In this document: positions 3,567 to 21,821 of the stretch, in pieces
How positions within the stretch are numbered: the first letter of the stretch is position 1
Layout of the letters: the number at the start of each line of letters is the position of its first letter
Source: a bacterium
Lineage (GTDB): Bacteria; CAIJMQ01; JAADFP01
Reading direction: 5' to 3'
DNA length: 21,821 nucleotides
NCBI GenBank assembly: GCA_027021085.1
Contig: JALUVB010000298.1
Location: 1-21,821 of the forward strand
Position numbers and translations under genes: made by a program
The notes under the pieces: model-generated
Database searches by the model: none
Seen by the model: the letters and a program-made list of their open reading frames with translations, nothing else
What the model was told of the DNA's origin: nothing

Positions 3567-3695
3567 TTCCTTTACCGAGAGTAAAGCCCCCGTGGCCATT
3601 GCCGCTACAAGGACCCGGCAACAGCCGACTACCGAGGATTAATGCTGACATTTAAGAAGAATGGAAAGTTAGGCCATTAGGGACCGGAGGGAAAA

Positions 3696-7314: not shown

Positions 7315-7375
7315 GCTGTAAATTATAGACTTTAATGCCCTGTCCCGGGAAGATTGTAAACAGGGAGGATTACTT

Positions 7376-7483
7376 TTGAGCTGGCGGAGGCAGGTGGGAG
7401 CAGGAAGGGGTGGGGTTTCACCCTGCCGGGCTCCACTTGGATTAAGAGGGGGCCAGGCTATTTTCGAGGAGATAAATGGATAA
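7376..7483 (+). CDS. Possible 35-codon leader ORF overlapping the PHP-hydrolase start
   Basis: The 161-bp spacer after the UroD-like gene holds a TTG-initiated frame of 35 codons (starting LSWRRQVGAG with TTG read as Met). GGGAGGA lies five bases upstream. Its TAA (7481-7483) falls just inside the next gene, whose ATG is at 7476 in another frame, a layout compatible with translational coupling. The peptide is Arg/Gly-rich and resembles nothing I know. It may be chance in a GC-rich spacer; no coding evidence beyond SD, start and overlap is available. Confidence 0.2.
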   Translation: MSWRRQVGAGRGGVSPCRAPLGLRGGQAIFEEING

Positions 7484-9455
7484 AAATATGTGTAAAATTG
7501 GCAGGAAAGGGACTGATAATGTCAGGAGTTTGAGAAAAATGGGGACATGGACCATTAGTATTTCAGGCGGAAAAGGGAAGAATCTACGGGCAGGGGAATA
7601 TGCTACCTTTGTACTAAGATACGAGAACAAGGTTGCCTTGCGAGGAGGCGCATACCTGAGAGTTGCCTGCTATGCTAATGGCATAGGATTACTGCAAAAC
7701 AGACATCCTCGAGAGGATAATTTCCTTTCAGTTCGCTGTCCCGGGCATTGTGAGCTTGAAGTTTCCGTAGAAGAAAGGTCATACAGGTCAATCACCCATC
7801 TTAAAACGGCAAAAAATTCGGATTTGTATATCATCCAACTGCAGATAAAAAACGGGATTCTCAGGGAAAAAGATGTCATAGAGATTGTTATGGGAGACAG
7901 GAGCTTTGGTTCAAAAGGACTGCTTCTTCCCAAGATTAGTGATATTCCCCTCCAGTTTTTCTATCATATAGACCCTGCAGGAGAGTTTCAATTTACCCCT
8001 GTTAACAAAGAGGCCCCGCAATATTTAGAGCTTTTGAATGCAGCACAGGATGCCTTTCCTCAGTGGGGAAAAATATACCCTGCCGTTAACATTCAGCCCC
8101 GGGAGCCGGAAAGGCTGGATCTCAGAGTTCCTTCAATTGTTTCAGGGGGAGAAACAGTTAAGGCAAAGATTGTTGCTTATGACAGGTATTACAATGTGGT
8201 GCGGGGCTATGAAGAGACCGTTGAGTGTGTAGGTGTGGGTGATATATTGCCCCGGAAGCGTCGCATCATGGTAAAAACCGGGGAAAAGGGGTACTGCGAT
8301 TGCAGGTTAAAAGTAAGCGAAAAGAGTTCGCAGGGAATACTCTTCTGCCGGGCGCACAATATCGGGATATTCAGGAGCAACCCTGTAATTATTGTCAAAA
8401 GGAGTAGCGGGAAGGAAGATTCAGGCGAGGATAATACCAGGGTATTCTGGGGAGACCTGCATGGACATTCTTCCCTTTCTGACGGCATAGCGAGAGATGA
8501 AAATGATTTCTTTTATTATGCAAGAAATATCCGGGGGCTTGACTTTGCCGCGCTGGCAGACCATTCGTTCGGCCTGGCGGTAAAAGGACATTGGGAAAGA
8601 CTCCGGAAAGCTATAAGGAAACACACTCGCGAGGGGGAATTTTTGGCTATTTTAGGCTGGGAAGGAATGTTTAAAGGGTTTGGTCACAGGAATATATACT
8701 TCAGGGATGATGAGGGAATGATTTTTATGGTTGACTATCAACCTGGCAGCGGCGGGAGTTTTGAAGGAGAAGATGTAAAGGCCTATAAAAAAATATGGAG
8801 TCAGGATATAGAAAAAGTGAAGGATATGGAAAAACTCTTTAGATTATTGAAAGGCAAGGAATTTATCTGGACGGCTCACCATTTTGGCAATCTTCACCCG
8901 GCTGAAAGAGAATTGTTAAGCTTGTATGAAGTCTGTTCCGAATGGGGTATATCGGATAATCATCCGAGAAAAAATAATTCTTCCACACCTATTCAGGCAG
9001 TATTTAAATTGGGCTTGAATCCGGGGCTTACGGGAGGAAGCGATGACCACACGGCCCGGGCGGGTTTCCTTGGCCATAACATTCGGAAAGGCCCTATACG
9101 GTATCCCTCGGGCCTGACCGCCGTTGTATGTGAAAGGTTGACGCGGGAAGAGATATTTCGGAGCTTACGGCAAAAAAAATGCTATGCTACAACCGGTGCC
9201 AGGATAATTATTAAAACGAAATCATCTATGGGGAAATATTTTTCTGTCTCCATGAAAATATGGGGAAGTGATGTGATTGACAGGATACAGGTTTTTAAGA
9301 AAGGAGAAATGGTGCATGAAAAAATGGGAGCTTCTGAACACGAAACACTTGCATGGGAGGACAGAGAGTATAAACGAGGTGATAATTACTACGTAAGAAT
9401 TATCCAGATGGATAACCAGATAGCCTGGATAAACCCGATGCATTTTGCTGAATAG
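7476..9455 (+). CDS. CehA/McbA-type (DUF3604-like) metallohydrolase with PHP domain
   Basis: This 659-aa protein has an N-terminal beta-rich region (about 20-310) and a PHP-superfamily metal-dependent hydrolase domain (about 320-560). The PHP metal ligands are visible in order: DLHGHS (H329, H331), SDG (D336), ADHS (D362, H363), GWEG (E396), AHHFGN (H468, H469) and GGSDDH (D523, D524, H525). A beta-strand region follows (about 575-659). Known CehA/McbA members hydrolyse carbamate or other esters, but most family members are uncharacterised and many lie in polysaccharide loci. Here it sits between a UroD-like gene and a fucosidase, which favours a glycan- or ester-directed role. No signal peptide is seen. 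The ATG is four bases after GAGGAG; an in-frame ATG at 7488 is possible but spaced less well. The PHP call is strong, the substrate unknown. Confidence 0.82.
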   Translation: MDKNMCKIGRKGTDNVRSLRKMGTWTISISGGKGKNLRAGEYATFVLRYENKVALRGGAYLRVACYANGIGLLQNRHPREDNFLSVRCPGHCELEVSVEERSYRSITHLKTAKNSDLYIIQLQIKNGILREKDVIEIVMGDRSFGSKGLLLPKISDIPLQFFYHIDPAGEFQFTPVNKEAPQYLELLNAAQDAFPQWGKIYPAVNIQPREPERLDLRVPSIVSGGETVKAKIVAYDRYYNVVRGYEETVECVGVGDILPRKRRIMVKTGEKGYCDCRLKVSEKSSQGILFCRAHNIGIFRSNPVIIVKRSSGKEDSGEDNTRVFWGDLHGHSSLSDGIARDENDFFYYARNIRGLDFAALADHSFGLAVKGHWERLRKAIRKHTREGEFLAILGWEGMFKGFGHRNIYFRDDEGMIFMVDYQPGSGGSFEGEDVKAYKKIWSQDIEKVKDMEKLFRLLKGKEFIWTAHHFGNLHPAERELLSLYEVCSEWGISDNHPRKNNSSTPIQAVFKLGLNPGLTGGSDDHTARAGFLGHNIRKGPIRYPSGLTAVVCERLTREEIFRSLRQKKCYATTGARIIIKTKSSMGKYFSVSMKIWGSDVIDRIQVFKKGEMVHEKMGASEHETLAWEDREYKRGDNYYVRIIQMDNQIAWINPMHFAE

Positions 9456-9487
9456 GGCAATCTGTATCTTCAGAGAAGGAGAAGCGG

Positions 9488-10660
9488 ATGGAAGAAAAAT
9501 TAAAATGGTTCAAAGAAGCAAGGTTCGGGATGTTTATCCACTGGGGTGTGTATTCACTAATAGGCCGGGGAGAATGGGTAAAGTATCAAGAGAAGATGCC
9601 GGATGAAGAATATGCTGAATATGCAGCAAAATTTAAAGCGCAGAATTACCATCCGGAAGGATGGGTAAAACTGGCGAAAGAAGCGGGCATGAAATACATG
9701 GTCCTTACCAGCAAGCACCATGATGGATACTGTCTTTTTGAGACAAAAACCACGGATTTCAACAGCGTAAAGGTTGGGCCCCGCAGGGACCTGGTGGCGG
9801 AATATGTTAAGGCTTGCCGAAAGCATGGGATGAAAATAGGATTTTACTATTCATTGCCGGACTGGAGCAAACCCGCCTTTTTCAAGGGACCGGATAAAGC
9901 TCCCAATGAATGGAGAGAATTTATCAGGTATATCCATGCCCAGGTCAAAGAATTGTGCACTCAATATGGCAGAATAGACATCTTGTGGTATGACTATATA
10001 GTCCTGCGGGAGAAAAAGGCTGCTTATTCTGCTGAGGATTGGCAATCTGAAAAACTCAATGCCATGGTGAGGAAATATCAGCCGGAGATTCTCATAAATG
10101 ACCGTTCGGGATTACCGGAAGATTTTGATACACCGGAGCAGCGGATTACCCCTTCCAGGCCCGGGCGTATGTGGGAGGCTTGCATGACCATGAATAAACA
10201 CTGGGGGTATTTTCCCCGGGATAACATGTGGAAATCTCCCAGGGAGCTAATACATCAGCTTACCGGGTGTGTAAGCGGGGGGGGTAATTTCCTGTTAAAT
10301 GTGGGGCCAAAGCCTGACGGGACCATCCCCGGAGAAGCGGTGAGGCGGCTGCGGAGGATAGGAGAATGGTTGAAGATAAACGGGGAGGCAGTATACGGTG
10401 CTGACCGGGGTCCGTTTAGTTCCGGGACTGCGGGAGTGGTTACAGCAAAGGGGAAGAAGATTTATTTAATCGTGCACTGGTGGCCGGGGAGAGAACTTTG
10501 CCTGCCGGAGGTGAAAACGAAAATAAAGTCTGCCTATATTTTGTCTACCGGCCAGGAGGTTATCCCGGAGCCGCGGGGTGAACGGTTGATTTTGAAGGAA
10601 CTCCCGGCAAAGGCACCGGATTATTTAAGCACGGTGATTGTCTTATCTCAGGAATACTGA
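9488..10660 (+). CDS. GH29 alpha-L-fucosidase
   Basis: This 390-aa enzyme is predicted to release L-fucose from alpha-fucosides with retention of configuration. It begins directly with the catalytic barrel (KWFKEARFGMFIHWGVYS), with no signal peptide, which suggests cytoplasmic action. Family landmarks are HWGVYS, TSKHHDGYCLF, DFNSV, KIGFYYSLPDW, and GRIDILWYD, where D169 is the expected nucleophile; TPEQRI, the invariant-looking SW(G)-type region MNKHWGY, and GGNFLLNVGPKPDG follow. A short C-terminal beta domain (about 300-390) closes the protein. The ATG follows GAAGGAGAAG. It lies 32 bp after the PHP gene and 26 bp before the Gfo/Idh gene, consistent with one operon. The length is on the short side for bacterial GH29 but the domain appears complete. 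Confidence 0.92.
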   Translation: MEEKLKWFKEARFGMFIHWGVYSLIGRGEWVKYQEKMPDEEYAEYAAKFKAQNYHPEGWVKLAKEAGMKYMVLTSKHHDGYCLFETKTTDFNSVKVGPRRDLVAEYVKACRKHGMKIGFYYSLPDWSKPAFFKGPDKAPNEWREFIRYIHAQVKELCTQYGRIDILWYDYIVLREKKAAYSAEDWQSEKLNAMVRKYQPEILINDRSGLPEDFDTPEQRITPSRPGRMWEACMTMNKHWGYFPRDNMWKSPRELIHQLTGCVSGGGNFLLNVGPKPDGTIPGEAVRRLRRIGEWLKINGEAVYGADRGPFSSGTAGVVTAKGKKIYLIVHWWPGRELCLPEVKTKIKSAYILSTGQEVIPEPRGERLILKELPAKAPDYLSTVIVLSQEY

Positions 10661-10686
10661 GATAAACGTGTTAGGAGAGAAAAATT

Positions 10687-11811
10687 ATGAATAATGAGAA
10701 AAGAGTAAGATTGGCTCTGATAGGTTGCGGAAATAACGGGGTAGGCCATGCTGAGATAATTGGGAAAATAGATTTTGTGGATCTGGTGGCAGCTGCTGAC
10801 CCGGTTCCAGAAGCTCTTGAAGCTATCAGGAAAGATATTCCTTCTATTCGCTGTTACGATGACTATGAAAGCATGTTTGCGGCGAATGACCTGGATGCAG
10901 TTATCATTGCTACTCCTCATTGCTACCATTATGAACAGACAATGGCTGCTTTCCGGAATAATTGCCATGTATTATTAGAAAAACCCATGGCTATCCGGGA
11001 GGAACACTGCCGGGAAATGGTGGAGACCGCAAAAGAGAAAAAATCGATTTTCCAGGTTGGTTTTGAGTGTCGGTGGTCAGCATTGTACAAAAGAGTAAAA
11101 GAAATTGTTGATTCCGGCGAAATCGGTGATTTGCTTTCCGTCTCCTTCGTTCATTACCGAAGCAAGTGGGTTAGGGACTGGTATTGCCGGAAGGAGTTGG
11201 CCGGCTGTATGACTATTATTGAGACCTGTCACTATATTGACCTGATGCGTTTTTTCTCCGGGCGGGAAGTGGAATGGGTATTCGCCTCTGCGCCAAAAGC
11301 AAACCTCAGAACGGACTATAATTATCCTGACACCTCTTTTGCCCAGCTTTATTTTAATAACGGATTAATTGCCAATATCATTGATTCCCATGCCCGTTCA
11401 AGTGAAATATTTTCAAAAGGTAGTCTTGCTCCTGATGAATCATACGCGATAGGAGAGGGAGAATATATGGACCCTGTGTACGGGCACCAGTTCGAGTATT
11501 CACTAATTGGTACGCAAGGTGCACTCTGGGTGCGTGTGCTGTCAAAGCAGATTTCAGTATTGGAGAAAGTTAAGTCTTTGTCTCGTCCTAATGTCCCGAA
11601 AATAGTGTTGAAAAGGGTGGAGGACTATAATAAACTGCCGCTGAATTTCCTGGTGCACGAAACATCTGAGCAGGACTTGAAGTTTATTGAGAGTGTGAAG
11701 ACGAATTCACCGCCGGTTTTTGATCCGGAAGATGCTTTAAAATCACACCTTGTGGCATTTGCCATTGAGAAGAGCGAACAAATGCATGAGAAAGTATTCA
11801 TAAAGTATTAA
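10687..11811 (+). CDS. Gfo/Idh/MocA-family NAD(P)-dependent oxidoreductase
   Basis: This 374-aa protein is a predicted sugar or polyol dehydrogenase. Residues 8-22 form the Rossmann nucleotide-binding turn (ALIGCGNNGVGHAEI). LLEKPMA holds the family EKP motif (K99, P100), and ETCHYIDLMRFFSG holds the catalytic His region (H182, D185). The C-terminal domain (about 130-350) has the usual alpha/beta fold of the family. The ATG at 10687 is preceded by TAGGAGAGA. It is the last gene before the IS200 remnant and is probably in the same operon as the fucosidase. It could oxidise a released fucose, rhamnose or galactose derivative, but the family does not allow a substrate to be named from sequence alone. 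Confidence 0.88.
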   Translation: MNNEKRVRLALIGCGNNGVGHAEIIGKIDFVDLVAAADPVPEALEAIRKDIPSIRCYDDYESMFAANDLDAVIIATPHCYHYEQTMAAFRNNCHVLLEKPMAIREEHCREMVETAKEKKSIFQVGFECRWSALYKRVKEIVDSGEIGDLLSVSFVHYRSKWVRDWYCRKELAGCMTIIETCHYIDLMRFFSGREVEWVFASAPKANLRTDYNYPDTSFAQLYFNNGLIANIIDSHARSSEIFSKGSLAPDESYAIGEGEYMDPVYGHQFEYSLIGTQGALWVRVLSKQISVLEKVKSLSRPNVPKIVLKRVEDYNKLPLNFLVHETSEQDLKFIESVKTNSPPVFDPEDALKSHLVAFAIEKSEQMHEKVFIKY

Positions 11812-11899
11812 TCGTCGTTAATTATAAATTATAAGAGAATCATGTGGGGGGAGAGGAGTACGGAGAAACATACGGGAAAAAACCCGATTTGCCGGGTAA

Positions 11900-12217
11900 A
11901 CTGGCGGGAATATATCCCGGATTATCAACCCGCTGCACGAAATTATAAGGATAGGGATAGATAATGATCATGTTCATGTGCAGATGATAATACCACCCAA
12001 GTATTCCGTGAGCAAGGTTATAGAGACGATAAAGAAGAATACGAGCCGGGCATTGAGGGAGAAGTTTAGATTTTTGAAGAAAGTGTATTGGGATAACAAA
12101 GGGATATGGGGGACAGGATTTTTTGTATCTACAGTTGGGATTGATGAGGAGATAATAAGGAGATACGTTGAGATGCAAGGCAAGGAAGACACAGGAGAAG
12201 CTGAGCTTGAACTATGA
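11900..12217 (+). pseudogene. tnpA: 5'-truncated IS200/IS605 Y1 transposase (tnpA)
   Basis: The frame is open only from 11900, just after an in-frame TAA at 11897, and carries the C-terminal two thirds of a TnpA. Visible motifs are the HUH motif (DHVHV; His codons at 11969 and 11975), IPPKYSVSKVIETIKK, YWDNKGIWGTGFFVSTVG, and the helix EEIIRRYVEMQGKED, whose Tyr is the expected nucleophile of single-strand transposition. The N-terminal strand and its start codon are missing and no stretch upstream supplies them in another frame that I can recognise. Full-length TnpA is usually about 130-155 aa; the residue count here is 105 including non-family sequence at the front. It is probably inactive. 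It separates the Gfo/Idh gene from the DUF4838-like gene. Confidence 0.85.
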
Positions 12218-12219
12218 AA

Positions 12220-12247
12220 GCACCACGCCTGTAAAGGCGTGGGTAGC
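12220..12247 (+). repeat. IS200/IS605 right-end hairpin
   Basis: Three bases after the tnpA stop lies an imperfect palindrome. Its arms CCACGCC (12223-12229) and GGCGTGG (12236-12242) enclose the loop TGTAAA, and outer GC pairs at 12220-12221 and 12246-12247 extend it past a small internal bulge. A subterminal hairpin just after tnpA is the right-end transposase recognition structure in this IS family. No matching left-end hairpin was found near 11812-11900, in keeping with loss of the left end. Confidence 0.7.
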
Positions 12248-12267
12248 TATAAAGTAGAGGGAATATT

Positions 12268-13665
12268 ATGGCTGAATCAACATTTCTTATACGCGGATTC
12301 AATCCCTGCGAGAGCCTGCTCCGGCATACACCGGAGCAATTACGGCGTTTTATCCGCAGAATGAGAGACTTGCAAATGAACACTATTATCATTCACTATG
12401 ACTATGGATGGAAACGGTACAGGGATCTCATCCTGGAGGAAACCGAAAAAGCCGGGATTGAAATCACACTGATGACTTTCGGGCCCAGGACATTTTGGGG
12501 CTATACTGACTGGAAGCTGGAGTGGTTTGCCCGGAAGGAGGATGGAACAGCTTTTACCCGAGAGCTGGAGTGCGAGACTCACCCGTGTCGGTTTCAGCGG
12601 GAAGGATTGGAAGCCTTTGTTTACGGTGCAAAAGAGTGGTTGAAAAGCCTTCCCTCTTGGATTACACGCGTTCATATGCGGGCAGCAGATGGACTTAATT
12701 ATTGCCGGTGTGAGCAATGCCGGTGCCTTCCTGAGCAGGAAAAATGGCAGCCTTTTATTGAAGCCTTCGTAAATGCTGTGCTGGAAATCCGGCCGGATTT
12801 GAAATTTGAGACAGATGTTTACGTCAAACGCTACAATATTCCTGAAAACCCCTCGGCGCACCGAAAGATGCATCGCATCATGTATGATACCTTCTGGCGG
12901 CAGTATCATGTTCCTATTGGCATGGAATCCTGGAACAAAGAGGTTATGCAGTATCTGGCTACAGAAAAGAACCCGGATGCAGATTCGCCGAATGTATATC
13001 ATGCCAACCGCCTGAAAGAGTGGTGCGTGCGGATGCCGGGGAAGGTATATGTTCACGAGAATGCTATGCAGCAGAGTTTACAGGGAGTATTTCAACATAA
13101 CACCGGTGTGATGCTGAAGGACCTGGAATTGTACCGATGGCTGGGTGTCCGGGGAGTCTGCTACGAAGCCTACGAACCTGGTTATGCAAGTTTTGCAAAG
13201 CATTTTGAGATTCTTGCAAAAGCCATGGTGGATATAGAAAATGCAAAAGATTATCAGGAGACCGAATTGGAAAAAGAATTGAGGAGCAACTGGCAAATGG
13301 GGCGGTTTTGTGATGACCCAGGCTTTCCCCTGGAAAAATTTATTGATGATCCGCTGGAAAGAACCCACATTGAGCACTTCCGGCGCTGTTTTGTGGAGCC
13401 CTCTCTCCAGGCCTATCGTGACTACGTAAATTTTGCTTTTGAGCACGAAGAGCGCTTTGATGCCATATTTATCGGCTTCTTTAACGCAAAATGGGGTATG
13501 TATAAGGGGAAGCTTGATTTTTCTGAAGTCTCCGAGGAAGCACGCTACATGCTCAGCCACCGGAAATTGTGGGATTTTATGGAAAAGATTCCGGCGGATA
13601 AGGATCCGATTCGGGAATGCAAAAGACTCATTTTAAATTTGGCAGAGAAAGGAAAGGATCGATAA
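12268..13665 (+). CDS. DUF4838-like TIM-barrel protein, putative glycosidase
   Basis: This is a 465-aa protein with no signal peptide. The N-terminal two thirds read as a barrel: alternating strands such as MNTIIIHYDYG, IEITLMTFGP, ITRVHMRAADG and LKFETDVYVK. A Cys cluster YCRCEQCRC (C146, C148, C151, C153) follows the DG turn, and this DG...CxCxxC pattern is what I recall of DUF4838 proteins, which are related to alpha-glucuronidase-type glycosidases. The C-terminal part (about 330-465) is helical. Acidic catalytic residues cannot be assigned with confidence. The ATG follows AGAGGGA and lies right after the IS200 hairpin, so its original promoter or operon link may have been altered by that insertion. 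The DUF assignment is moderate; a metal-binding role for the Cys cluster is an inference. Confidence 0.55.
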   Translation: MAESTFLIRGFNPCESLLRHTPEQLRRFIRRMRDLQMNTIIIHYDYGWKRYRDLILEETEKAGIEITLMTFGPRTFWGYTDWKLEWFARKEDGTAFTRELECETHPCRFQREGLEAFVYGAKEWLKSLPSWITRVHMRAADGLNYCRCEQCRCLPEQEKWQPFIEAFVNAVLEIRPDLKFETDVYVKRYNIPENPSAHRKMHRIMYDTFWRQYHVPIGMESWNKEVMQYLATEKNPDADSPNVYHANRLKEWCVRMPGKVYVHENAMQQSLQGVFQHNTGVMLKDLELYRWLGVRGVCYEAYEPGYASFAKHFEILAKAMVDIENAKDYQETELEKELRSNWQMGRFCDDPGFPLEKFIDDPLERTHIEHFRRCFVEPSLQAYRDYVNFAFEHEERFDAIFIGFFNAKWGMYKGKLDFSEVSEEARYMLSHRKLWDFMEKIPADKDPIRECKRLILNLAEKGKDR

Positions 13666-13803
13666 TAAAAATAATTTTTTTCAGCGTAAAGAATGAACGG
13701 GGATAAGAATGACGAGAATTTATATTGACTTTAACCGGGAAATGGATAATATCCACCCCGGCTTACCCCTGGAGAAAATTTAATATAAGGAGTTATACAC
13801 AAT

Positions 13804-13908
13804 ATGCACAACATTAACAACAAGAAAAAGCTTGACCAAAAAAGAAGAATTACTACTACTGGTAGAATTACTACTACTGGTAATTTTATTGGAACAGGAC
13901 ATTTCTAA
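13804..13908 (+). CDS. Doubtful 34-aa ORF containing duplicated RITTTG
   Basis: The frame runs from ATG 13804 to TAA 13906-13908 and begins MHNINNKKKLDQKRR. It continues into two copies of RITTTG encoded by the perfect 18-bp tandem repeat, and ends NFIGTGHF. An AAGGAG lies about eleven bases upstream, which is longer than ideal. The basic Lys/Arg-rich start could be the front of a lost transposase gene whose remainder was deleted. Nothing else supports expression. Confidence 0.2.
   Translation: MHNINNKKKLDQKRRITTTGRITTTGNFIGTGHF
13846..13881 (+). repeat. Perfect 18-bp tandem repeat (2 copies)
   Basis: The unit AGAATTACTACTACTGGT occurs at 13846-13863 and again at 13864-13881 with no mismatch. 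Its length is a multiple of three and it stays in frame within the small ORF around it. A third partial resemblance (AATTTTATTGG) follows. Confidence 0.9.
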
Positions 13909-13945
13909 ATTGGTAGAAAGCGGACATTTCTACTTTGGCTTGACA
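13897..13945 (+). repeat. 25-bp direct repeat, possible IS end
   Basis: GGACATTTCTA occurs at 13897-13907 and 13922-13932, and TTGG follows each copy two bases later, giving a period of 25 bp. On the opposite strand the segment reads TGTCAAGCC...GAAATGTCC...GAAATGTCC. This resembles transposase-binding direct repeats next to a TG-starting IS terminus. The outer end would be at 13945. No second end or transposase was found, so this is at most a solo end. The repeat is seen; its IS origin is inferred. Confidence 0.5.
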
Positions 13946-14042
13946 ATATCTGGATTTACTACCAGGGAAAAGGTAAAATGTGGAGTTAATATGTTATAAG
14001 CTGAAGAGAAAAGACAGGGTGAAGAAATAAGGAGAGACGAAG

Positions 14043-16157
14043 ATGGATTCTGTAAAGGTAAGAAATTGTGTAATAGAATTTGAAGGTAAGAAAATTCCCC
14101 TTATCAGCGGCGAGTTTCACTACTGGAGGAATTTCCCGGACCAATGGCAGCCTATTTTAGACAGGATAAAAGAGATGGGGCTAAAGGTTATTTCCACCTA
14201 TATTCCCTGGAATTTTCATGAACTGGAGCGGGGGGTATATGATTTTACCGGGAAAACCCACCCACGCCGTAACTTGCAGGGGTTTGTTGAGCTTTTAAAA
14301 GAAAACGGGTTTTACCTGATTGTGCGTCCGGGGCCCTATATTTATTCTGAGTGGCCTAATGGCGGTCCTCCGGATTATGCAGTGAAGTATCATCGTCTGG
14401 ACCCGAATTTCCTGGATTGTTCAAGAGATTATATAAAAAATGTTTGTAAAGTACTGTTGCCTTTCCAGGTAAGCCGGGGGGGGAATATCATCATGCTCCA
14501 GGCGGATAACGAACCTTATCCTCCGGTGGAAAGCTTTGGGGATGAGATGGGGTGTTTCAGGGATAGGGGGATATTTAAAGAGTGGTTGAAAGAGAAATAT
14601 GAGCACGATATAAGCAGGTTGAACGAATTATGGAGAAGCAATTATAAATCCTTTGATGAGGCTTGTTTTTATTTTCACGAGGTATGTGTGGATGTGACTC
14701 GTCCCATGGCGGACCGGCTCTTGCCGCATGAAAAGTATTACTGGAGATATGCAGATTCCCATGAGTTTATAGGCTGGTATGCCAGGAAGATTGTGGAAGC
14801 TGTTGCCCGATGGTTTAAAGAAGCCGGCGTGGAAGTGCCAATATACGGTAACGGCTGGTCTCCCTATTACCAGGATTTTTACTCCCTCTCAGAAGTGGTG
14901 GACCTGGTAGGCAATGATATTTATCCCCTGGAATATATTAAGGGAAACAAAATAACAGAAGATGAATGGCTTTACCATGTTGACCATGTAAAGATGGCCA
15001 GGGGTGAGCTGGGGTATTGCTGGTCAGCGGAGTTTCAGAGCGGGATTTATCCTATCAGGTTTACCGGTTACCTTTCTCCCGAACATTTCAAGTATGTAGC
15101 CTTTTCACTCATGGCTAATGGGTTAACGGGATGGAACTGGTATATGCTGGTCAACCGCGACAACTGGTATAACTGCCCTGTAAACGAGTGGGGTAGGGAT
15201 AATGAGTACTTTGATGCACACAAGGAGATTGTCAGGGTAGCGCAGGAAGTGAAGCCCTGGCAACTGGAGGAATTAACGGATATTTCGCTTCTGGTTTATA
15301 AGCCGCACAGGGTGATTTCTCCTGGCAACTGGAAGAGCGTTTTTTATGCGTTGAATGAGGCAGATATTGGCTTCCTTGAGTACAACCCGCAGACGGGAGA
15401 ACTCCCCGGCACCAGGTGTTTGATTTATGCTGGCTCCGACTGGCTGCCACTTAGTATACAGGAGCAGTTGCTGGATTATGTGGAAAATGGAGGCATACTC
15501 GTACTATTTAATGAGTTTCCGGAAAGAGACGAGTATGGCAGGGAGGTAAATGTCCTGGGCTTGCAGTTACCAGAGGGAGCGCGGCCGGTTATACTGCCGG
15601 TGGATATTTGTTTTGATAAGCACAGGATAAAAATTGATAAAGCAGGCCATATAGAAAAGAAGGTGAATTTCTTCTATTACAGGACAGTGATGGGCGAGCC
15701 TATTATTTCTGCTGTCTCCCGGGAGGCAAAAGAGATACTGGTGGATATTGGCGCGGTAGAGGAGAAATCGTTCATTATTGGTTACAGGAAAAAGGTAGGC
15801 AAGGGGGCAATAATTCACATAGGGAGCAACCCTTCTGCTTCACTTGTCAAGTTAGCCTTGTATATAGGCGGGATAAACTGGCACGTGAAAGCTTCTACGC
15901 CGGGGGTCCTTACCAGCATATACCGGGATAGGGAGAACGGCTCGCTTATTCTTTATGTGAATAACCGGGATGAGGTGACAAAAGGAGTGGAAATTGCCCT
16001 GCAGTCTGAGGCTCTGGGGCTGGATGCTGCAAAGAGCGCAAAGTGGGAAGAGATAACCAGTAGTGGGGAATATGAAGTTTCAGGAGAGGATATAAAGCGT
16101 TTGCAACTTACTATAAGCGGAAATACTGTCAGAATAATCAGGTATCCAGGCAAGTAA
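14043..16157 (+). CDS. GH35-like (clan GH-A) beta-galactosidase
   Basis: This 704-aa protein has no signal peptide. Residues 1-400 form a beta-galactosidase barrel: SGEFHYWR, STYIPWNFHE, FDFTG-like YDFTG, LIVRPGPYIYSEWPNGG, IIMLQADNEPYPP (E157 is the candidate acid/base after N156), and CWSAEFQSG (E330 is the candidate nucleophile). Those segments match GH35 best. Residues 410-495 resemble the GATase-like domain seen in GH42 and some GH35 proteins (DISLLVYKPHR, RCLIYAGSDW, LLDYVENGGILVLFNEFP), and the remainder is beta-rich. It would remove beta-galactose or a related sugar from oligosaccharides in the cytoplasm. GGAGAG precedes the ATG. It is the last gene of the + strand block and converges on copA. 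Confidence 0.83.
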   Translation: MDSVKVRNCVIEFEGKKIPLISGEFHYWRNFPDQWQPILDRIKEMGLKVISTYIPWNFHELERGVYDFTGKTHPRRNLQGFVELLKENGFYLIVRPGPYIYSEWPNGGPPDYAVKYHRLDPNFLDCSRDYIKNVCKVLLPFQVSRGGNIIMLQADNEPYPPVESFGDEMGCFRDRGIFKEWLKEKYEHDISRLNELWRSNYKSFDEACFYFHEVCVDVTRPMADRLLPHEKYYWRYADSHEFIGWYARKIVEAVARWFKEAGVEVPIYGNGWSPYYQDFYSLSEVVDLVGNDIYPLEYIKGNKITEDEWLYHVDHVKMARGELGYCWSAEFQSGIYPIRFTGYLSPEHFKYVAFSLMANGLTGWNWYMLVNRDNWYNCPVNEWGRDNEYFDAHKEIVRVAQEVKPWQLEELTDISLLVYKPHRVISPGNWKSVFYALNEADIGFLEYNPQTGELPGTRCLIYAGSDWLPLSIQEQLLDYVENGGILVLFNEFPERDEYGREVNVLGLQLPEGARPVILPVDICFDKHRIKIDKAGHIEKKVNFFYYRTVMGEPIISAVSREAKEILVDIGAVEEKSFIIGYRKKVGKGAIIHIGSNPSASLVKLALYIGGINWHVKASTPGVLTSIYRDRENGSLILYVNNRDEVTKGVEIALQSEALGLDAAKSAKWEEITSSGEYEVSGEDIKRLQLTISGNTVRIIRYPGK

Positions 16158-16199: not shown

Positions 16200-16261
16200 T
16201 AGCAAGCAGAAGATGTGGGATGGTTGCCGAATAACGCTCCCCGTTTCGCGCTACTCCCCCG
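16200..16261 (+). repeat. Direct repeat, copy A (left of copper genes)
   Basis: TAGCAAGCAGA (16200-16210), a nine-base variable part, and a 42-bp core (16220-16261, beginning ATGGTTGCCGAATAACGC) recur in the same orientation at 21148-21208. The core matches at 38 of 42 positions. Confidence 0.85.
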
Positions 16262-16292: not shown

Positions 16293-18743
16293 TTAAAACC
16301 TAATCCTTGCCCTGCGCAGGGAATTGGCATTAGCCACCACGGTCACAGAGCTGGTAGCCATGGCTATCTCTGCCAGCACCGGGTGCATCCAGCCTACCAC
16401 GGCAGTAGGAATCATTACCGTATTGTAGAAAAATGCCCAGAAGAGATTCTGCTTTATCTTTCGGAAAGTTGCCCTGCTCAGTCTAATGGCACTTACCACG
16501 CCAGCCAGGTTTCCGCTAACCAGGGTTACGTCCGAAGCTTCTATGGCAATGTCAGTTCCAGTGCCAATGGCAATACCTACATTTGCCTGGGTAAGGGCCG
16601 GGGCATCGTTCATTCCGTCCCCCACCATGGCTACTATGTCAAACTCTTTCTGCAGTTTCTGTATTTCCTCCATTTTCCCATCCGGTAATACCTCTGCCAG
16701 CACATAATCTATCCCCACTTTGCTGGCAATAGCTTCTGCAGTACGTTTGTTGTCACCGGTTATCATTGCTGTTTTGATACCCATCCTGTGTAATTCTTCA
16801 ATAGTGCTGAGAGAATCTTCCTTCAGGGTATCGGCTACTGCCACTATTCCTGACAGGGTGTTATCCTGAGCTATCAGCATGGCGGTTTTTGCTTCTTTCT
16901 CTAAGCGTTGCAGTGCGGATTCCAGGGGTGCGGGATCCAGCCCGTACTCCTGCATGAGAAGCCTGGAGCCTGCCAGGATCCTTTTCCCGTTTACCGAGGC
17001 TATTACTCCCTTACCCCGAATAGCCTGGAACTCCTCTATCTTGTCTATATTTATCCCTTCTTTCTCTGCTCTTTGCAGGATTGCTTTTCCCAGCGGATGT
17101 TCACTGCCCTGTTCCACCGTGGCAGCAAGCCGGAGCACTTCTTTCTCCTGGAATCCATCAGTGGCGATAATATCGGTAACCTCCGGTTTCCCCTTGGTGA
17201 TGGTGCCGGTTTTGTCAAATACTACTATTTTCACGTCTTTCAGTGTCTGGATTGCTTCTCCCGAGCGAATAAGGATGCCGTGTTCTGCTCCCATGCCGCT
17301 TCCTACCATGAGAGCGGTGGGAGTGGCCAATCCCAGAGCACAGGGACAGGCAATTACCAGTACTGCTACGGTGGAGACAATGGCCAGGGTAATGATGGTC
17401 AAGTTGGCGTTTACCCAGGGGAGAAATGCTCCAATCTGTACCAGGGAACGCATTGCCTGGGGAAAGAAAATCCAGGAGAGGAAAGTAACCACCGCTATCC
17501 CCAGTACTACGGGGACAAACACGCCGGTTACCTTATCCGCAAATTCCTGGATGGGCACCTTGGAACCCTGGCATTCTTCCACCATTTTAATTACCTGGGA
17601 AAGAAATGTGTCCTTTCCTACCCGGGTAGCTTTGATTTTCAGGAGCCCTTCCTGGTTGACCGTGGCCCCGATGGCTTCATCTCCCGGTCTTTTATTTACC
17701 GGCATGGATTCTCCTGTGGCCATAGATTCATCCACCGCGCTTTCGCCTTCCACAATAACACCGTCAGTGGGTATCTTTTCTCCGGGTCTTACTATCATTA
17801 CATCGTTGACCTGAACTTTTTCAATAGGAACTTCCACTTCTTTCCCTTCTATCAGGATGCGGGCAGTTTTTGCTCCCAGTTCCAGCAGCTTGCGAATTGC
17901 CTGGGAAGCATGTCCTTTTGCTTTCTCTTCCACGTAGCGTCCGGTAAGGTGAAAAGCCATAATCATGGCGGAGACGCCTGCATAGTTGGCAACCGGGAAG
18001 AAGAAAGAGGGAGGACCGGTGAGGAAAGATACTCCTGTGCCCAGGGCGATAAGCGTGTCCATGTTAGCGTGACCGTGGCGGACTGCGACCAGGGCACTCC
18101 TGTAAGTATGCCGTCCTAACCAGAAAAGCACCGGGACAGAAAGAAGAATTAGCCCTGCATTGTATATGGTTGCGTTGGGCCATACGATTCCAAACAGCAT
18201 CTCTGCGAACATCCAGATAATGATGGGTATGGTAAATCCCCAGGCAGCCCACATGCGGAAGCGGGCGATGCGCATTTTCCTTTCTTCTTCCTCTTCTTCC
18301 TTTTCCTTATCTACTCCCGCGCTTTCCCCGACAAGTTCGTATCCTACATTAGCCACTGCCTGCTGTAAGTTGCCTATGCTGGTCACTCCCGGGATATAAG
18401 TTATGGAAGCTTTCTCCGTAGCTAGGTTTACACTGGCGGAAAGCACTCCTTCTACCTTTTTAAGAGCTGTTTCCACCTTGTTTGCACAACTGGCACAGGT
18501 CATCCCTTTCACAGGAAGAGAGAGGGGTTCTGAAGGGACTTCATACCCTGTTGTTTTTACGGCAGAAATTAAAGCATCCAGGCTCACTTTATCCGCATCT
18601 AATTCCACCGTAGCCCTTTCCGTGGCCAGGTTAACATTAGCATTTTCTACCCCTTCCACCTTTTTAAGGGCTGCTTCCACCTTGTTTGCACAACTGGCAC
18701 AGGTCATCCCCTGTACGGGTAAAATCAATCTTTTACTTGCCAT
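16293..18743 (-). CDS. copA: Cu+-exporting P1B-type ATPase CopA with two HMA domains
   Basis: This 816-aa protein exports Cu+ from the cytoplasm using ATP. It has two N-terminal metal-binding domains (GMTCASC with C15/C18 and C83/C86), then a charged linker, eight expected membrane segments, and the P-type core. Core motifs are TGES (343-346) in the actuator domain, CPC (C466, C468) in the transport helix, DKTGT with phosphorylated D510, SEHPLG (H549) in the nucleotide domain, and GDGMND (D709). The last helices contain FYN and MATSS, the copper-specific YN and MxxSS signatures of P1B-1 pumps. The ATG follows GGAGGT by eight bases. The promoter with a copper-type operator lies at 18769-18797, so it is transcribed separately from the redox operon upstream. 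The length is normal for the family. The two HMA domains are nearly identical in part at the DNA level. Confidence 0.97.
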
Positions 18744-18768: not shown

Positions 18769-18797
18769 ATTATACCATACCCCCCTGGGGTACTGCA
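18769..18797 (-). promoter_or_regulatory. copA promoter with CsoR-type operator
   Basis: Reading the minus strand, TATAAT (18774-18769) is an ideal -10, and a weak -35 TGCAGT (18797-18792) lies 17 bases away. The spacer contains TACCCC-AGG-GGGGTA (18792-18778) within a 19-bp site at 18794-18776 that matches the site at 20765-20783 in 16 of 19 positions. CsoR-family copper repressors bind GC-rich palindromes of this kind between -35 and -10, so copper-induced derepression is the likely control. Confidence 0.7.
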
Positions 18798-18911
18798 GGA
18801 ATAATAAGGCAATTTCCCTCTATTTTGTTTGTACTTTAATCCTTGTCCTAAAACCAACTTTTCCCAGCTATAAATTGGAGTGAGGGCAGGCGGGCAAGGC
18901 ATTAACTCACC

Positions 18912-18974
18912 CTCCACTGCTTACTGTTTACTATCCATTCCCCCTACTACTATCTACCTGCTACTCGCTACTTT
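18912..18974 (-). repeat. Period-7 degenerate repeat array
   Basis: The 242-bp gap between copA and the thioredoxin-like gene contains heptads. Read on the minus strand they are AGTAGCG, AGTAGCA, GGTAGAT, AGTAGTA, and after a break AGTAAAC, AGTAAGC, AGTGGAG. The same heptads occur on the + strand in the 20900-21094 spacer. The remainder of the gap (18798-18911) shows nothing I can name, and no terminator. Confidence 0.7.
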
Positions 18975-18985
18975 CTTCCCACAAC

Positions 18986-19240
18986 TTACTTTAAACTGTT
19001 TATCTTCTCAATAAATTTTTCCTTATTCAGGGCGCCGGTGGAGAACAATTCTCCGTTGATGACAATACCCGGAGAAGCCATAATCATGTATTTGGAAATC
19101 ATCTCCTGTCCTTCTGGTGTTGCCATGTCCACTTCCTGTACCTGCATTTCCGGGTATTGAGGTTTTAGCTCCTCCAGAATCTGCTTTGCCCTGGCGCATT
19201 CTCCGCAGGTGGGAGTACTTAAAATTTGTACCTGTATCAT
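18986..19240 (-). CDS. Small thioredoxin/glutaredoxin-like CxxC protein
   Basis: This is an 84-aa cytoplasmic thioredoxin-fold protein. The ATG at 19240 is chosen over an in-frame TTG at 19261 because a full AAAGGAGG lies between them, seven bases or so before the ATG. The active site is PTCGECARA (C12, C15 from this start), and a cis-Pro region (MASPGIVIN) follows at the expected place, then a GxLxxEKFIEKI helix. The length and pattern match thioredoxin_3-type redox proteins often coded with membrane permeases or CcdA. It is the third gene of the operon, 17 bp after the HMA gene. It could pass electrons to or from the CcdA-like protein, or keep the metal-binding Cys pairs of the HMA protein reduced. 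That partnership is inferred from gene order. Confidence 0.85.
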   Translation of the reverse strand: MIQVQILSTPTCGECARAKQILEELKPQYPEMQVQEVDMATPEGQEMISKYMIMASPGIVINGELFSTGALNKEKFIEKINSLK

Positions 19241-19257
19241 ACTAACCTCCTTTTTTC

Positions 19258-19476
19258 TCAATCCGAAGCACGCAGGGTGTATCCCAGCGGACTTATGCTT
19301 TCGGATAATTTTGACAGGTTCGTTTTCTCGTTATCATATTCGATGATAGCCTCTTTATTGTCAAAACTTACCGATACGGATTTTACTCCTTCCTGGTTTT
19401 TGAAAATCATCTCAATGCTGATAGCACAGCTGCCGCAGTGCATCCCGTCAACCGGAACCTTTTTAGTTTCTATCAT
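19258..19476 (-). CDS. Single HMA-domain metallochaperone, CopZ-like
   Basis: This 72-aa protein is one heavy-metal-associated domain with the motif GMHCGSC (C14, C17), the expected beta-alpha-beta-beta-alpha-beta pattern (VKSVSVSF, AIIEYD, LSKLSESISPLGY), and a short tail. The ATG at 19476 is preferred: GGAGGG lies eight bases upstream, while a GTG at 19482 would be only two bases from it. His in place of the usual Thr before the first Cys differs from the CopA domains here (GMTCASC) and may alter metal affinity. It begins two bases after the stop of the CcdA-like gene, so translation is probably coupled. It likely carries Cu+ to CopA or to the redox pair; binding of another soft metal is possible. 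Confidence 0.88.
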   Translation of the reverse strand: MIETKKVPVDGMHCGSCAISIEMIFKNQEGVKSVSVSFDNKEAIIEYDNEKTNLSKLSESISPLGYTLRASD

Positions 19477-19478
19477 AA

Positions 19479-20723
19479 TCACATCCCTCCTCTGAAGTTA
19501 AATAAAGCTAATCCCCAGATTATAAATATTATCAAGAGAATTACAAATGTGCGGCGGCTCATCTCTTCTCTTTTTCGCAGGAAATACCAGAGCAGAATAA
19601 ATATGGGAACCAGTAGGTTCAGCCAGCCGGCATACTGTATAAAGGGAACCTTGGCTTCAACTTGCTGGGTGGGTATCTCTGCCTCGGCAAGACGTGTTCC
19701 CCCCATGTTGGCAAAGAACCTGTTCATTCCCACGTGCACAATGGACCCCTCGTACCACAGGTGGCCAAAGGCCCCGTTCAGGATAATAAAGGAGGCTATC
19801 AAAATCAGTGCCCAGCCCGTGATATTATCCACTAACTTTTTCTTCCTGATTAATGCCCCGGTAGCATTGACTCCCACTATTCCCAGGACAGAGAAGAAGA
19901 GAAGCGGTAAAACTCTCCCCAATCCATTCACCCCCATGTAAAAAGCACCGGTGGCCAAGCTTCCGCTGCCAGCAGCGGCAATAAGAATGAGGTAAGTAAT
20001 GGGATTGGGGCAGCCTACTCCCGCGTTTCCCAGGAACAAACCCAGGAAAAAAGTTTTTAAATAATCGGACTGCCGCTGGATAAATGCCGGGGTCCTTGAC
20101 AGGGAAGGCATTTTAAAGGTAACCAATGCCAATTCCGAAAGCCCAAAGACCAGGGCTGCTACTCCTGCCACCAGGTAGAGTATCCGGGTAGTTTTGTCCA
20201 GTCCCAGGTATTTTCCCACCAGGGCAATCCCTGCTCCGTAAACACTCAGCGTGATGGTTAACCCTAAGCCAAAAAGCAGGGCCATAATTAGTCCCTTTTT
20301 GTATCCCCTGCCCATGGAAAGAGGCACGATAACAAAGACCAGTGGTAGGGTACAGGGCAGGAATATGTTTGATACTCCTCCGGCGAAGGATAAGGTGGCA
20401 GTTAAAGCGGCAGTAGTGGATTTGGAGACGTAGAAAAGGGCTAAAATGATAAAGGAAAGTAGGAGAAAAGCAAAGCTGACAAAGTATGTTTTAAGCTTTT
20501 GTGCCCGTATTGGGTCCAGCTCTTCACGAGGGATGGCAGGACGGTTTGCCGGGGTTGCTTCTTCCCCACGGAATTCGTAAATAAACCCCAGCAGGAAAAG
20601 AAAAATGGCTACAATGGTATTGATTGGATGAATGCCGTGACCTACCACCCAGGTGGTAAAGATAAAGTACAGCAAGGCGCCGCCCATGAAAATGATTCCT
20701 ATCGTTTTATTTCTGCTCATCAT
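19479..20723 (-). CDS. CcdA/DsbD-like transmembrane thiol electron transporter, extended
   Basis: This is a 414-aa integral membrane protein. The central part (about 80-320) carries the CcdA signature: FLPCTLPL (C124) in its first core helix and GVGCPNPI (C238) in the fourth. These are the paired redox-active Cys that move reducing power across the membrane. Two extra helices precede it (about 8-26 and 31-50), a loop of roughly 45 residues follows (about 322-362), and two more helices close it (about 364-383 and 391-408). A typical CcdA is about 220-250 aa, so this is a long variant without the DsbD soluble thioredoxin domains. ATG-ATG at 20723 follows AAGGGAGAAGG. It is first in the operon with the HMA and thioredoxin-like genes, under a copper-type operator. 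The family is clear; a role in copper-stress thiol balance is inferred. Confidence 0.85.
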   Translation of the reverse strand: MMSRNKTIGIIFMGGALLYFIFTTWVVGHGIHPINTIVAIFLFLLGFIYEFRGEEATPANRPAIPREELDPIRAQKLKTYFVSFAFLLLSFIILALFYVSKSTTAALTATLSFAGGVSNIFLPCTLPLVFVIVPLSMGRGYKKGLIMALLFGLGLTITLSVYGAGIALVGKYLGLDKTTRILYLVAGVAALVFGLSELALVTFKMPSLSRTPAFIQRQSDYLKTFFLGLFLGNAGVGCPNPITYLILIAAAGSGSLATGAFYMGVNGLGRVLPLLFFSVLGIVGVNATGALIRKKKLVDNITGWALILIASFIILNGAFGHLWYEGSIVHVGMNRFFANMGGTRLAEAEIPTQQVEAKVPFIQYAGWLNLLVPIFILLWYFLRKREEMSRRTFVILLIIFIIWGLALFNFRGGM

Positions 20724-20757: not shown

Positions 20758-20787
20758 AATATAACATACCCCCCAGGGGTATGTCAA
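20758..20787 (-). promoter_or_regulatory. Redox operon promoter with CsoR-type operator
   Basis: On the minus strand a perfect -35 TTGACA (20787-20782) and a -10 TTATAT (20764-20759) are 17 bases apart. The spacer is almost wholly occupied by CATACCCC-TGG-GGGGTATG (20783-20765), with 8-bp perfect arms. This is the best of the three sites in the window and has the composition and position of CsoR operators. A repressor bound there would block RNA polymerase until Cu+ releases it. Confidence 0.78.
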
Positions 20788-20899
20788 GCAAAACAGAATA
20801 ATTAGAGGGTGTTTAACCAGCCAAAAAGCAGTAAAAGTGCATTGCTGAGAGAGCAGGGAAAAACGGATGGATTTTGCAAAGAGCGGGGGAATAGGGAGC

Positions 20900-21094
20900 A
20901 GTAAGTAGTAAAAGAATAGTGAGTAGATAGTAGCGGGTAGTGGGGGAGGCATTTTAGACCTTAGACCATAGACTTTAGACGTTAGACTGGGAGATAGTGA
21001 CCAGTAAACAGTAAGCAGTGAACAGTAGCTCAGTTGCTCGCCTGTCATGCCTGCGGAAACAGGCATCGAAGAAAGTAGTGAGTAGTTAGTAGCG
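20900..21094 (+). repeat. Cluster of period-7 degenerate arrays
   Basis: Four short arrays with a 7-bp period lie close together. At 20900-20943 there are AGTAAGT and GTAGNNN units. At 20954-20988 there are five TTAGACN units (TTAGACC, TTAGACC, ATAGACT, TTAGACG, TTAGACT). At 20996-21030 there are five AGTRANC-type units (AGTGACC, AGTAAAC, AGTAAGC, AGTGAAC, AGTAGCT). At 21074-21094 there are three AGTAGNN units. They carry stops in many frames and appear non-coding. Confidence 0.8.
21047..21066. repeat. Small extragenic palindrome
   Basis: ATGCCTG (21047-21053) and CAGGCAT (21060-21066) pair across the loop CGGAAA. It lacks a T-run and is embedded among heptad arrays, so it looks more like an interspersed palindrome than a terminator. 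Confidence 0.5.
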
Positions 21095-21147
21095 AGGGGG
21101 AATAGATTCCTGCTTGTGCAAGAGTGACGGAAAGTGAGAATAGCAGG

Positions 21148-21208
21148 TAGCAAGCAGAGGGAGGGAATGGTTGCCGAATAACGCTTCCCGGTTCGCGCCA
21201 CTCCACCG
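21148..21208 (+). repeat. Direct repeat, copy B (right of copper genes)
   Basis: This is the second copy of the 16200-16261 repeat. TAGCAAGCAGA (21148-21158) is identical, followed by an eight-base variable part and a core at 21167-21208 matching copy A at 38 of 42 positions. It ends 16 bp before the operator of the YHS gene. Confidence 0.85.
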
Positions 21209-21221
21209 CTCACTCTCCCCT

Positions 21222-21250
21222 TAGCATACAGTAGGGGGGTATGGTATAAT
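21222..21250 (+). promoter_or_regulatory. YHS-gene promoter with half-degenerate operator
   Basis: TATAAT (21245-21250) is a consensus -10; the hexamer 17 bases upstream (TAGCAT) is poor. CATACAGTAGGGGGGTATG (21225-21243) has the 19-bp length and outer arms of the site at 20765-20783, with 15 of 19 positions matching. The right half through the -10 (AGGGGGGTATGGTATAATA) is identical to the copA promoter over 19 bases. The inner left half has lost its CCCC. Confidence 0.62.
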
Positions 21251-21270: not shown

Positions 21271-21525
21271 ATGAAGAAGTATATCATAGCAGTTGGTGCT
21301 GTGCTTTTACTGGCAATCGGGTTGGTGTGGTTAATTATGCAAAAAGAGCCCTCCTCAATTTCCGGAAGCAGAGAAGTGGCCATGGCAAAAGACCCGGTAT
21401 GCGGCATGGAAGTGAGCAAAAAGGATTCTCCGTCCGCTGTACATATGGGGAAAACTTTTTATTTCAAATCAGAGGCTTGTAAGGCGAGGTTTAATGAAAA
21501 TCCCATGAAGTATATGAATAATTGA
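21271..21525 (+). CDS. Membrane-anchored YHS-domain protein
   Basis: This is an 84-aa protein. Residues 4-23 are one hydrophobic helix after MKK, an N-terminal anchor or uncleaved signal, followed by a Ser-rich linker (27-35). Residues 39-84 form a YHS domain: KDPVCGMEV (C44), then TFYFKSEACKARF (C70) and NPMKYM. YHS domains accompany copper and other metal ATPases and are thought to bind metal through their Cys pair. The domain would face the outside of the cytoplasmic membrane. GGGGGTGAG lies four bases before the ATG. Its promoter is shared in design with copA, so it is probably copper-induced, perhaps capturing metal outside the membrane. It is followed 27 bp later by an oxidoreductase gene. 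Confidence 0.85.
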   Translation: MKKYIIAVGAVLLLAIGLVWLIMQKEPSSISGSREVAMAKDPVCGMEVSKKDSPSAVHMGKTFYFKSEACKARFNENPMKYMNN

Positions 21526-21552: not shown

Positions 21553-21821
21553 ATGAAGGAGTATCAGGTTATTATTGCCGGGGCAAGTTTTGCCGGACTT
21601 TCCGTTGCTTCGCAGTTAAGCGGAGAAGTGTTGCTTATTGACTCGGCAGATATAGGTAAAAGACAAATTTCTGCCTGTGGAGCACCTCTTGACGTAATAG
21701 AAGAAGCAGGATGCAAAGACTCTGTTCTCCAGGTCTCCCATCTGTTTTCCCTGCATGTCAACGGAAAAGAAGTAGACTTTTATTTTAAAAATCCTTACTG
21801 TACCTTTGATTACTTCCGGTT
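21553..21821 (+). CDS. FAD-dependent oxidoreductase, geranylgeranyl reductase-like (partial)
   Basis: The frame is open to the window edge, so only the first 89 complete residues are seen. It starts MKEYQVIIAGASFAGLSVASQL, cut here at the Rossmann GxSxxG turn that binds the FAD adenine part, followed by VLLIDSADIG, whose acidic residue would contact ribose. A QISACGAPLDVIEEAG segment fits the geranylgeranyl-reductase/FixC-like group, where a Cys-Gly pair follows the first strand pair. An AAGGGATAGGG lies just before the ATG. It probably forms a unit with the YHS gene. Its substrate cannot be told from this fragment, and it may have no part in copper handling. Confidence 0.7.
   Translation, partial: MKEYQVIIAGASFAGLSVASQLSGEVLLIDSADIGKRQISACGAPLDVIEEAGCKDSVLQVSHLFSLHVNGKEVDFYFKNPYCTFDYFR

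Follow-up and report, generated by a model that had tools for sequence, protein, structure and literature searches.

The ccdA-L/HMA/trx operon, encoding a CcdA/DsbD-like membrane thiol carrier, an HMA metal-binding mini-protein, and a small thioredoxin-like protein, may well constitute a thiol relay of the CcdA type that is induced by copper, has a thioredoxin to itself, and includes a metal-binding module that can be exchanged. By its sequence, the carrier, which the preliminary description called an extended CcdA, is assigned to a distinct subfamily of CcdA/DsbD proteins, named CcdA-L here. Comparison of gene neighborhoods supports the view that ccdA-L, a gene for an HMA or YHS protein, and trx form one conserved unit that has every component of a thiol relay across the membrane. 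The operon lies in a 21,821-nt stretch of DNA (contig JALUVB010000298.1, assembly GCA_027021085.1; genome size 1.93 Mb), referred to below as the window.

Gene content of the operon and the metal island

The genes follow each other on the minus strand between positions 20723 and 18986 in the order ccdA-L (19479..20723, 414 aa), the HMA gene (19258..19482, 74 aa, with the motif GMHCGSC), and trx (18986..19240, 84 aa from an ATG start, with the motif TPTCGEC). The beginning of the HMA gene and the end of ccdA-L overlap by 4 bp. For trx, a TTG further upstream (19261) is an alternative start that would add seven residues. The adjoining copA gene (16293..18743, minus strand) encodes a P1B Cu-type ATPase of 816 aa with two HMA domains and belongs to the same regulon. 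The overlapping and abutting genes and the position of copA bear out the preliminary description of three closely packed modules with paired cysteines beside copA.

The two cysteines of CcdA-L are C124, in LPCTLP of TM1, and C238, in NAGVGCPNP of TM4. In Pfam, the protein matches DsbD_2 (PF13386) with 30.5 bits against a cut-off of 24.9 and DsbD_TM (PF02683) with 27.0 bits, marginally below the cut-off of 27.1, and no further domain is found; its score with full-length DsbD, containing the alpha, beta, and gamma domains (NCBIfam PRK00293), is 21.9 versus 330 bits. The HMA protein and the thioredoxin are recognized as HMA (PF00403, 62.8 bits) and Thioredoxin_3 (42.3 bits), and neither starts with a signal peptide or transmembrane segment as read from the sequence. 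The highest NCBIfam scores of the HMA protein are those with the MerTP/MerP and CopZ models, all under their cut-offs (at best 51.1 versus 91 for CopZ). No scsA, scsC, or scsD genes were seen in the window, and a comparison with plasmids produced no match.

Upstream of the operon, a gene on the plus strand (21271..21525) encodes an 84-aa YHS protein with an N-terminal transmembrane anchor and the motif DPVCGM; it is predicted to be extracytoplasmic and could be a partner of the relay. Next comes a FAD-dependent oxidoreductase-like gene (21553..21821, plus strand), of which the contig end leaves only the 5' part. A matching 3' part is found on another contig, C253, together with merA and tlpA genes.

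Low-complexity intergenic DNA of agtagtgagtag-like and ttagacc-like repeats flanks the operon on both sides (18880-18990 and 20890-21110). Both ends of the copper block (16220-16260 and 21165-21210) carry intergenic stretches that resemble each other (ggttgccgaataacgct..ccc..ttcgcgc.actcc), which may represent a dispersed repeat on either side of the island. The block adjoins a run of carbohydrate-related genes at 987-16157, which as read from the sequence include rhamnosidase-, fucosidase-, and beta-galactosidase-like members.

A copper-type operator and its regulon

The operon is preceded by a promoter, TTGACA-18-TATATT (20758..20787, minus strand), matching 11 of the 12 consensus positions. 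Between its -35 and -10 elements lies a CsoR-type operator, ATACCCCCCAGGGGTAT (20766..20782), a perfect 17-bp palindrome with a 3-base spacer. CsoR sites of S. aureus (ATACCtataGGGGGTAC) have the same form (PMC10233261, PMC5947656). The earlier proposal that the genes start from one operator is thus confirmed, the exact palindrome being situated inside a single promoter and being of the copper (CsoR) type. A variant with one mismatch, ATACCCCCCTGGGGTAC, precedes copA (18777..18793), where the shared promoter core AGGGGGGTATGGTATAAT lies at 18769-18786. A degenerate operator with a -10 element (ATACAGTAGGGGGGTATGGTATAAT; 21226..21250, plus strand) is located before the gene of the anchored YHS protein, and the sister genome has a perfect palindrome at this place. 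Altogether, five palindromes with at most three mismatches occur in the window against 1.2 expected, a number reached in none of 100 shuffles.

In the whole 1.93-Mb genome, the operator within one mismatch is found only before the ccdA-L operon and copA, and in the sister genome G001 at three places, that is, before copA, ccdA-L, and the YHS gene. It is absent from the closest copy of the cassette, which is 82% identical (genome G212). The core AGGGGGGTATGGTATAAT, allowing for two mismatches, occurs at five places genome-wide, and the reversed control pattern at none. These places are copA; the gene of the membrane-anchored YHS protein (21271); a gene for an exported Met-rich protein, followed at some distance by a YHS reading frame (G000:C105); a unit of a YHS mini-protein and a UreH-like transporter (C247); and merA (C253). 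The Met-rich protein (MMMQDMKKMPMMQDMQGMMMQMM) is encoded directly behind the shared copper-type promoter (L178, 875-1135), and the core copy of the YHS-UreH unit (L182, 578-1468) has one mismatch; a transporter similar to this UreH-like protein adjoins an archaeal cassette (L077, 4780-5550).

The five-place promoter set and the ccdA-L operon form a tight metal regulon. The single match to PF02583 in the genome is a RicR/CsoR-like protein of the C-H-C type (KYC...KHIEHC), encoded at 3341-3625 of contig C106 next to a YHS-flavoprotein; it has the x-C-H-C ligand set, and its best NCBIfam score, 74 bits with RicR, is below the cut-off of 175. We infer that CsoR is the actual regulator of the operon. 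The metal of the regulon is taken to be copper because of the operator type, the CsoR ligands, and the presence of copA and the Met-rich protein.

The flavoprotein encoded beside csoR (L132, 344-1408; L173, 2211-3275; G000:C106) is similar to thioredoxin reductases and begins with a YHS domain; it might conceivably be a YHS-coupled metal reductase. It was rejected as a thioredoxin reductase, since the CxxC is missing (GVSYSSVQD) and the score is under the TRX_reduct cut-off.

CcdA-L, a distinct subfamily of thiol carriers

A contig scan across genomes revealed 173 relatives of CcdA-L, of which 80 were kept for alignment. Their hosts include Nitrospirota, Azambacteria, Sungbacteria, Pseudomonas, Thiobacillus, Woesearchaeota, Aenigmarchaeota, Patescibacteria, and many Nitrosopumilus-type archaea. 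Both C124 and C238 are invariant in all 80 aligned proteins, as are the LPCTLP motif and the NAGxGCPNP core. A third motif, GHxWYExxxxHxxxN, is nearly invariant in the subfamily (H321, 96%; W323, 100%; E325, 96%; H330, 100%; N334, 95%) and is absent from all 36 ordinary CcdA homologs; in the window protein it reads GHLWYEGSIVHVGMN. The loop with this motif, which follows core helix 6, has a K+R count of 0.5 versus a D+E count of 2.1, the K+R counts of the predicted inner loops being 2.5-4.1, and by the positive-inside rule the motif is predicted to sit outside the membrane.

The CcdA-L protein of the window contains extra transmembrane helices both before and after the core, and in the phylogenetic tree the subfamily is separated from the outgroup with full support. 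The AlphaFold model has a pLDDT of 83. Fold and sequence searches of the PDB revealed no CcdA or DsbD chain among the matches listed by Foldseek or VIA, which are unrelated transporters with low scores (Z-score of at best 8.2).

Conservation of the cassette

A small CxxC thioredoxin is encoded within 1.5 kb of ccdA-L at 71 of the 76 loci with downstream sequence, compared with 4 of 36 loci of ordinary CcdA, and an HMA protein or a 45-residue YHS mini-protein at 59 of 76, compared with none of 36 (Fisher's p about 2e-16, with kinship among the loci ignored). Thus the three-gene order, which the preliminary description had proposed to look for in other genomes, proved to be a conserved unit. Both partners are present at 58 loci; the HMA or YHS gene is missing from 17 and the thioredoxin from five. 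When the loci are grouped at 60% identity, the thioredoxin is found in 11 of 11 clusters and the metal-binding partner in six of 11. Further, a strong CcdA-L match was found in 46 genomes from a sample of 150 Nitrososphaeria, which overlaps in part with the genomes of the first CcdA-L set, and the genes of CcdA-L, YHS, and thioredoxin adjoin each other at all 24 loci inspected there.

The middle slot of the cassette is occupied by HMA in the bacterial branch of the window and its proteobacterial neighbors, and by YHS elsewhere, including ammonia-oxidizing and DPANN archaea. These labels cluster on the tree, with two changes for HMA and eight for YHS. On one archaeal contig (L090), the YHS protein and the thioredoxin are encoded by one 138-aa frame, which may reflect either a genuine fusion or a mistake in the assembly. 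A cassette 82% identical to that of the window occurs in a metagenome-assembled genome labeled Nitrospirota (L045/L050), the isolate name (M_) of which suggests the same sample as that of the sister genome, labeled Caldisericota; the likeness reflects either a recent transfer or a binning error.

Proposed mechanism

In known CcdA/DsbD systems, cytoplasmic thioredoxin reduces the cysteine pair in the membrane, which then reduces an extracytoplasmic partner. By analogy, the dedicated cytoplasmic thioredoxin would reduce with its C-x-x-C the intramembrane pair C124/C238, and CcdA-L would pass the electrons from the cytoplasm to the outside of the membrane. CsoR would repress the operon, and copper would relieve this repression. 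The external His/Trp/Glu/His motif may act on a metal or on a thiol partner that binds metal, candidate acceptors being the cupric ion, the membrane-anchored YHS protein, and the TlpA-like thioredoxin of the same island. The HMA mini-protein, replaced by YHS in the archaeal relatives, would bind metal in the cytoplasm, being either kept reduced by the relay or signaling the metal load to it. The relay could thus keep metal-binding thiols reduced, or drive the reduction of Cu(II) to Cu(I) across the membrane, as originally suggested. In this scheme, copper is the presumed physiological metal, and the role given to the HMA/YHS protein is a proposal.

A stronger version, which we regard as possible though rather doubtful, is that CcdA-L works as a metal reductase across the membrane or as a redox-gated copper carrier. 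Electrons of the cytoplasmic thioredoxin would then arrive at the external His/Glu site, where copper would be reduced or moved, HMA and YHS would be interchangeable cytoplasmic partners, and the mechanism would be common to copper-stressed bacteria and ammonia-oxidizing archaea.

Links to copper, mercury, and cytochrome c

Copper, CsoR-family, and cytochrome c genes near ccdA-L were counted by motif searches, which miss divergent genes. Outside the ammonia-oxidizer branch, 15 of 36 loci have a P-type ATPase with CP[CHS]AL within 10 kb, and a related kind of P-type ATPase accounts for four more loci or genes. CsoR-family genes are present in seven cases by motif and in more by eye; those beside the cassette in other bacteria are mostly of the C-H-H type, versus C-H-C in known copper sensors. 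At locus L124, distant from the window on the tree, TACCCCGTGGGGGTA is located 37 bp before ccdA-L, csoR lies upstream, and a further near-palindrome precedes copA. At the 44 loci of the ammonia-oxidizer branch, where YHS occupies the slot, the motif search detected no copper genes beside the cassette. The preliminary idea of a copper-defense unit therefore does not cover the whole family; in the window, the unit may serve defense, repair, or supply.

The same neighborhoods bear on an alternative function of CcdA-L as a redox-gated permease for copper(I) or another soft metal, which would pass through C124/C238 and the external His/Glu site, and be taken up or delivered inside by HMA or YHS, while the thioredoxin would reset the cysteines. 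The exchangeable cytoplasmic module in the middle slot, the external motif specific for the subfamily, and the Cu-type ATPases and CsoR proteins at many loci are in line with this function. Further, in two Patescibacteria loci (L068, 9956-12172; L120, 9986-11998) CcdA-L is fused to a His-rich C-terminal extension of about 370 aa with HIHP and IHTHP motifs, which Pfam does not recognize, and genes of a cupredoxin and an HMA-bearing ATPase-like protein are located downstream. Binding or import of Cu+ by DsbD has also been considered by Reyes et al. (PMC7785015). However, the conserved core is that of a thiol carrier, with the PCTLP and GCPNP cysteines, and an export function, if intended, would duplicate CopA. 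We consider a permease unlikely.

Lower still is the probability that the real substrate is mercury or another soft metal and the unit is part of a mercury-handling island. The MerA-family protein in the same island of the sister genome scores 511.7, over the equivalog cut-off of 454.45, and its counterpart in the window's own genome carries the promoter core AGGGGGGTATGGTATAAT; the HMA protein has its highest, though sub-cut-off, scores with MerTP/MerP as well as CopZ; and a MerP-like protein is encoded beside the cassette in L129 and L046. Against this, no merT or merB was noticed at the window cassette, only one of the 80 CcdA-L loci has a merA-like gene whose product ends in a CC tail, and the operators are of the CsoR type, with copA and the Met-rich exported protein in the regulon.

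An ordinary housekeeping pathway of the CcdA type, for the maturation of cytochrome c or for reducing envelope thiols in general, with a chance position near copA, agrees with the CcdA/DsbD homology and with the TlpA/ResA-like proteins near some members but is as improbable as the mercury reading, given that the motif search found CcsA/CcmC-like (WWD) or multiheme c-type genes at none of the 80 loci, that the operator within one mismatch is exclusive to copA and the ccdA-L operon in the genome, and that the HMA/YHS slot is not seen at ordinary CcdA loci; a role of CcdA-L in cytochrome c maturation is thus disfavored by its genomic context. The preliminary description took a link mostly to cytochrome c or mercury genes, away from copper loci, as evidence against its idea; no such preponderance was seen.

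Comparison with known systems

If the thiol relay proposed here is correct, CcdA-L represents a subfamily of thiol carriers dedicated to the handling of metals, each served by a thioredoxin of its own and by a metal-binding partner of interchangeable type, that spans bacteria, Patescibacteria, DPANN, and ammonia-oxidizing archaea. For the ammonia oxidizers, it provides a compact, testable gene set bearing on their copper handling. It also cautions that DsbD/CcdA-like genes should not all be annotated as genes of cytochrome c biogenesis. Among the titles, abstracts, and passages searched, a literature that left most subscription journals outside, no description of a CcdA-like/HMA-or-YHS/thioredoxin cassette was found.

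Another DsbD-family gene tied to copper in an ammonia-oxidizing archaeon is DsbD_a of N. viennensis (NVIE_014160), upregulated under copper limitation (Reyes et al., PMC7785015). It was considered as a candidate CcdA-L and rejected: in genome G518, taken as N. viennensis by the gene order DsbD-sialidase-tRNA ligase-regulator-PurP, this locus encodes an ordinary TlpA-CcdA fusion, and the genome has only a weak match to the CcdA-L profile. Judging from these comparisons, the archaeal DsbD reported to respond to copper seems to be a different protein.

Like the CcdA and DsbD-beta carriers (PF13386, PF02683), the known members of which are fed by cytoplasmic thioredoxin, CcdA-L is predicted to have two membrane-embedded cysteines in a six-helix core. 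It differs from them by the external GHxWYExxxxH motif, the extra helices, the dedicated small thioredoxin, the HMA/YHS partner gene, and the copper-type operator. The Scs system (ScsABCD, suppressor of copper sensitivity) likewise ties a DsbD-family carrier to copper tolerance (PMC5524982, PMC8900818), but its partners include periplasmic thioredoxin-fold proteins such as ScsC, whereas the thioredoxin and the HMA protein of the cassette have no signal peptides. Finally, the window resembles the CopA-CopZ-CsoR efflux operons in that a CsoR-type operator, an HMA mini-protein, and a Cu-ATPase belong to one regulon; in contrast to them, its HMA protein is below the CopZ cut-offs and, as predicted from the gene layout, shares its transcript with the genes of a thiol carrier and a thioredoxin rather than with copA.
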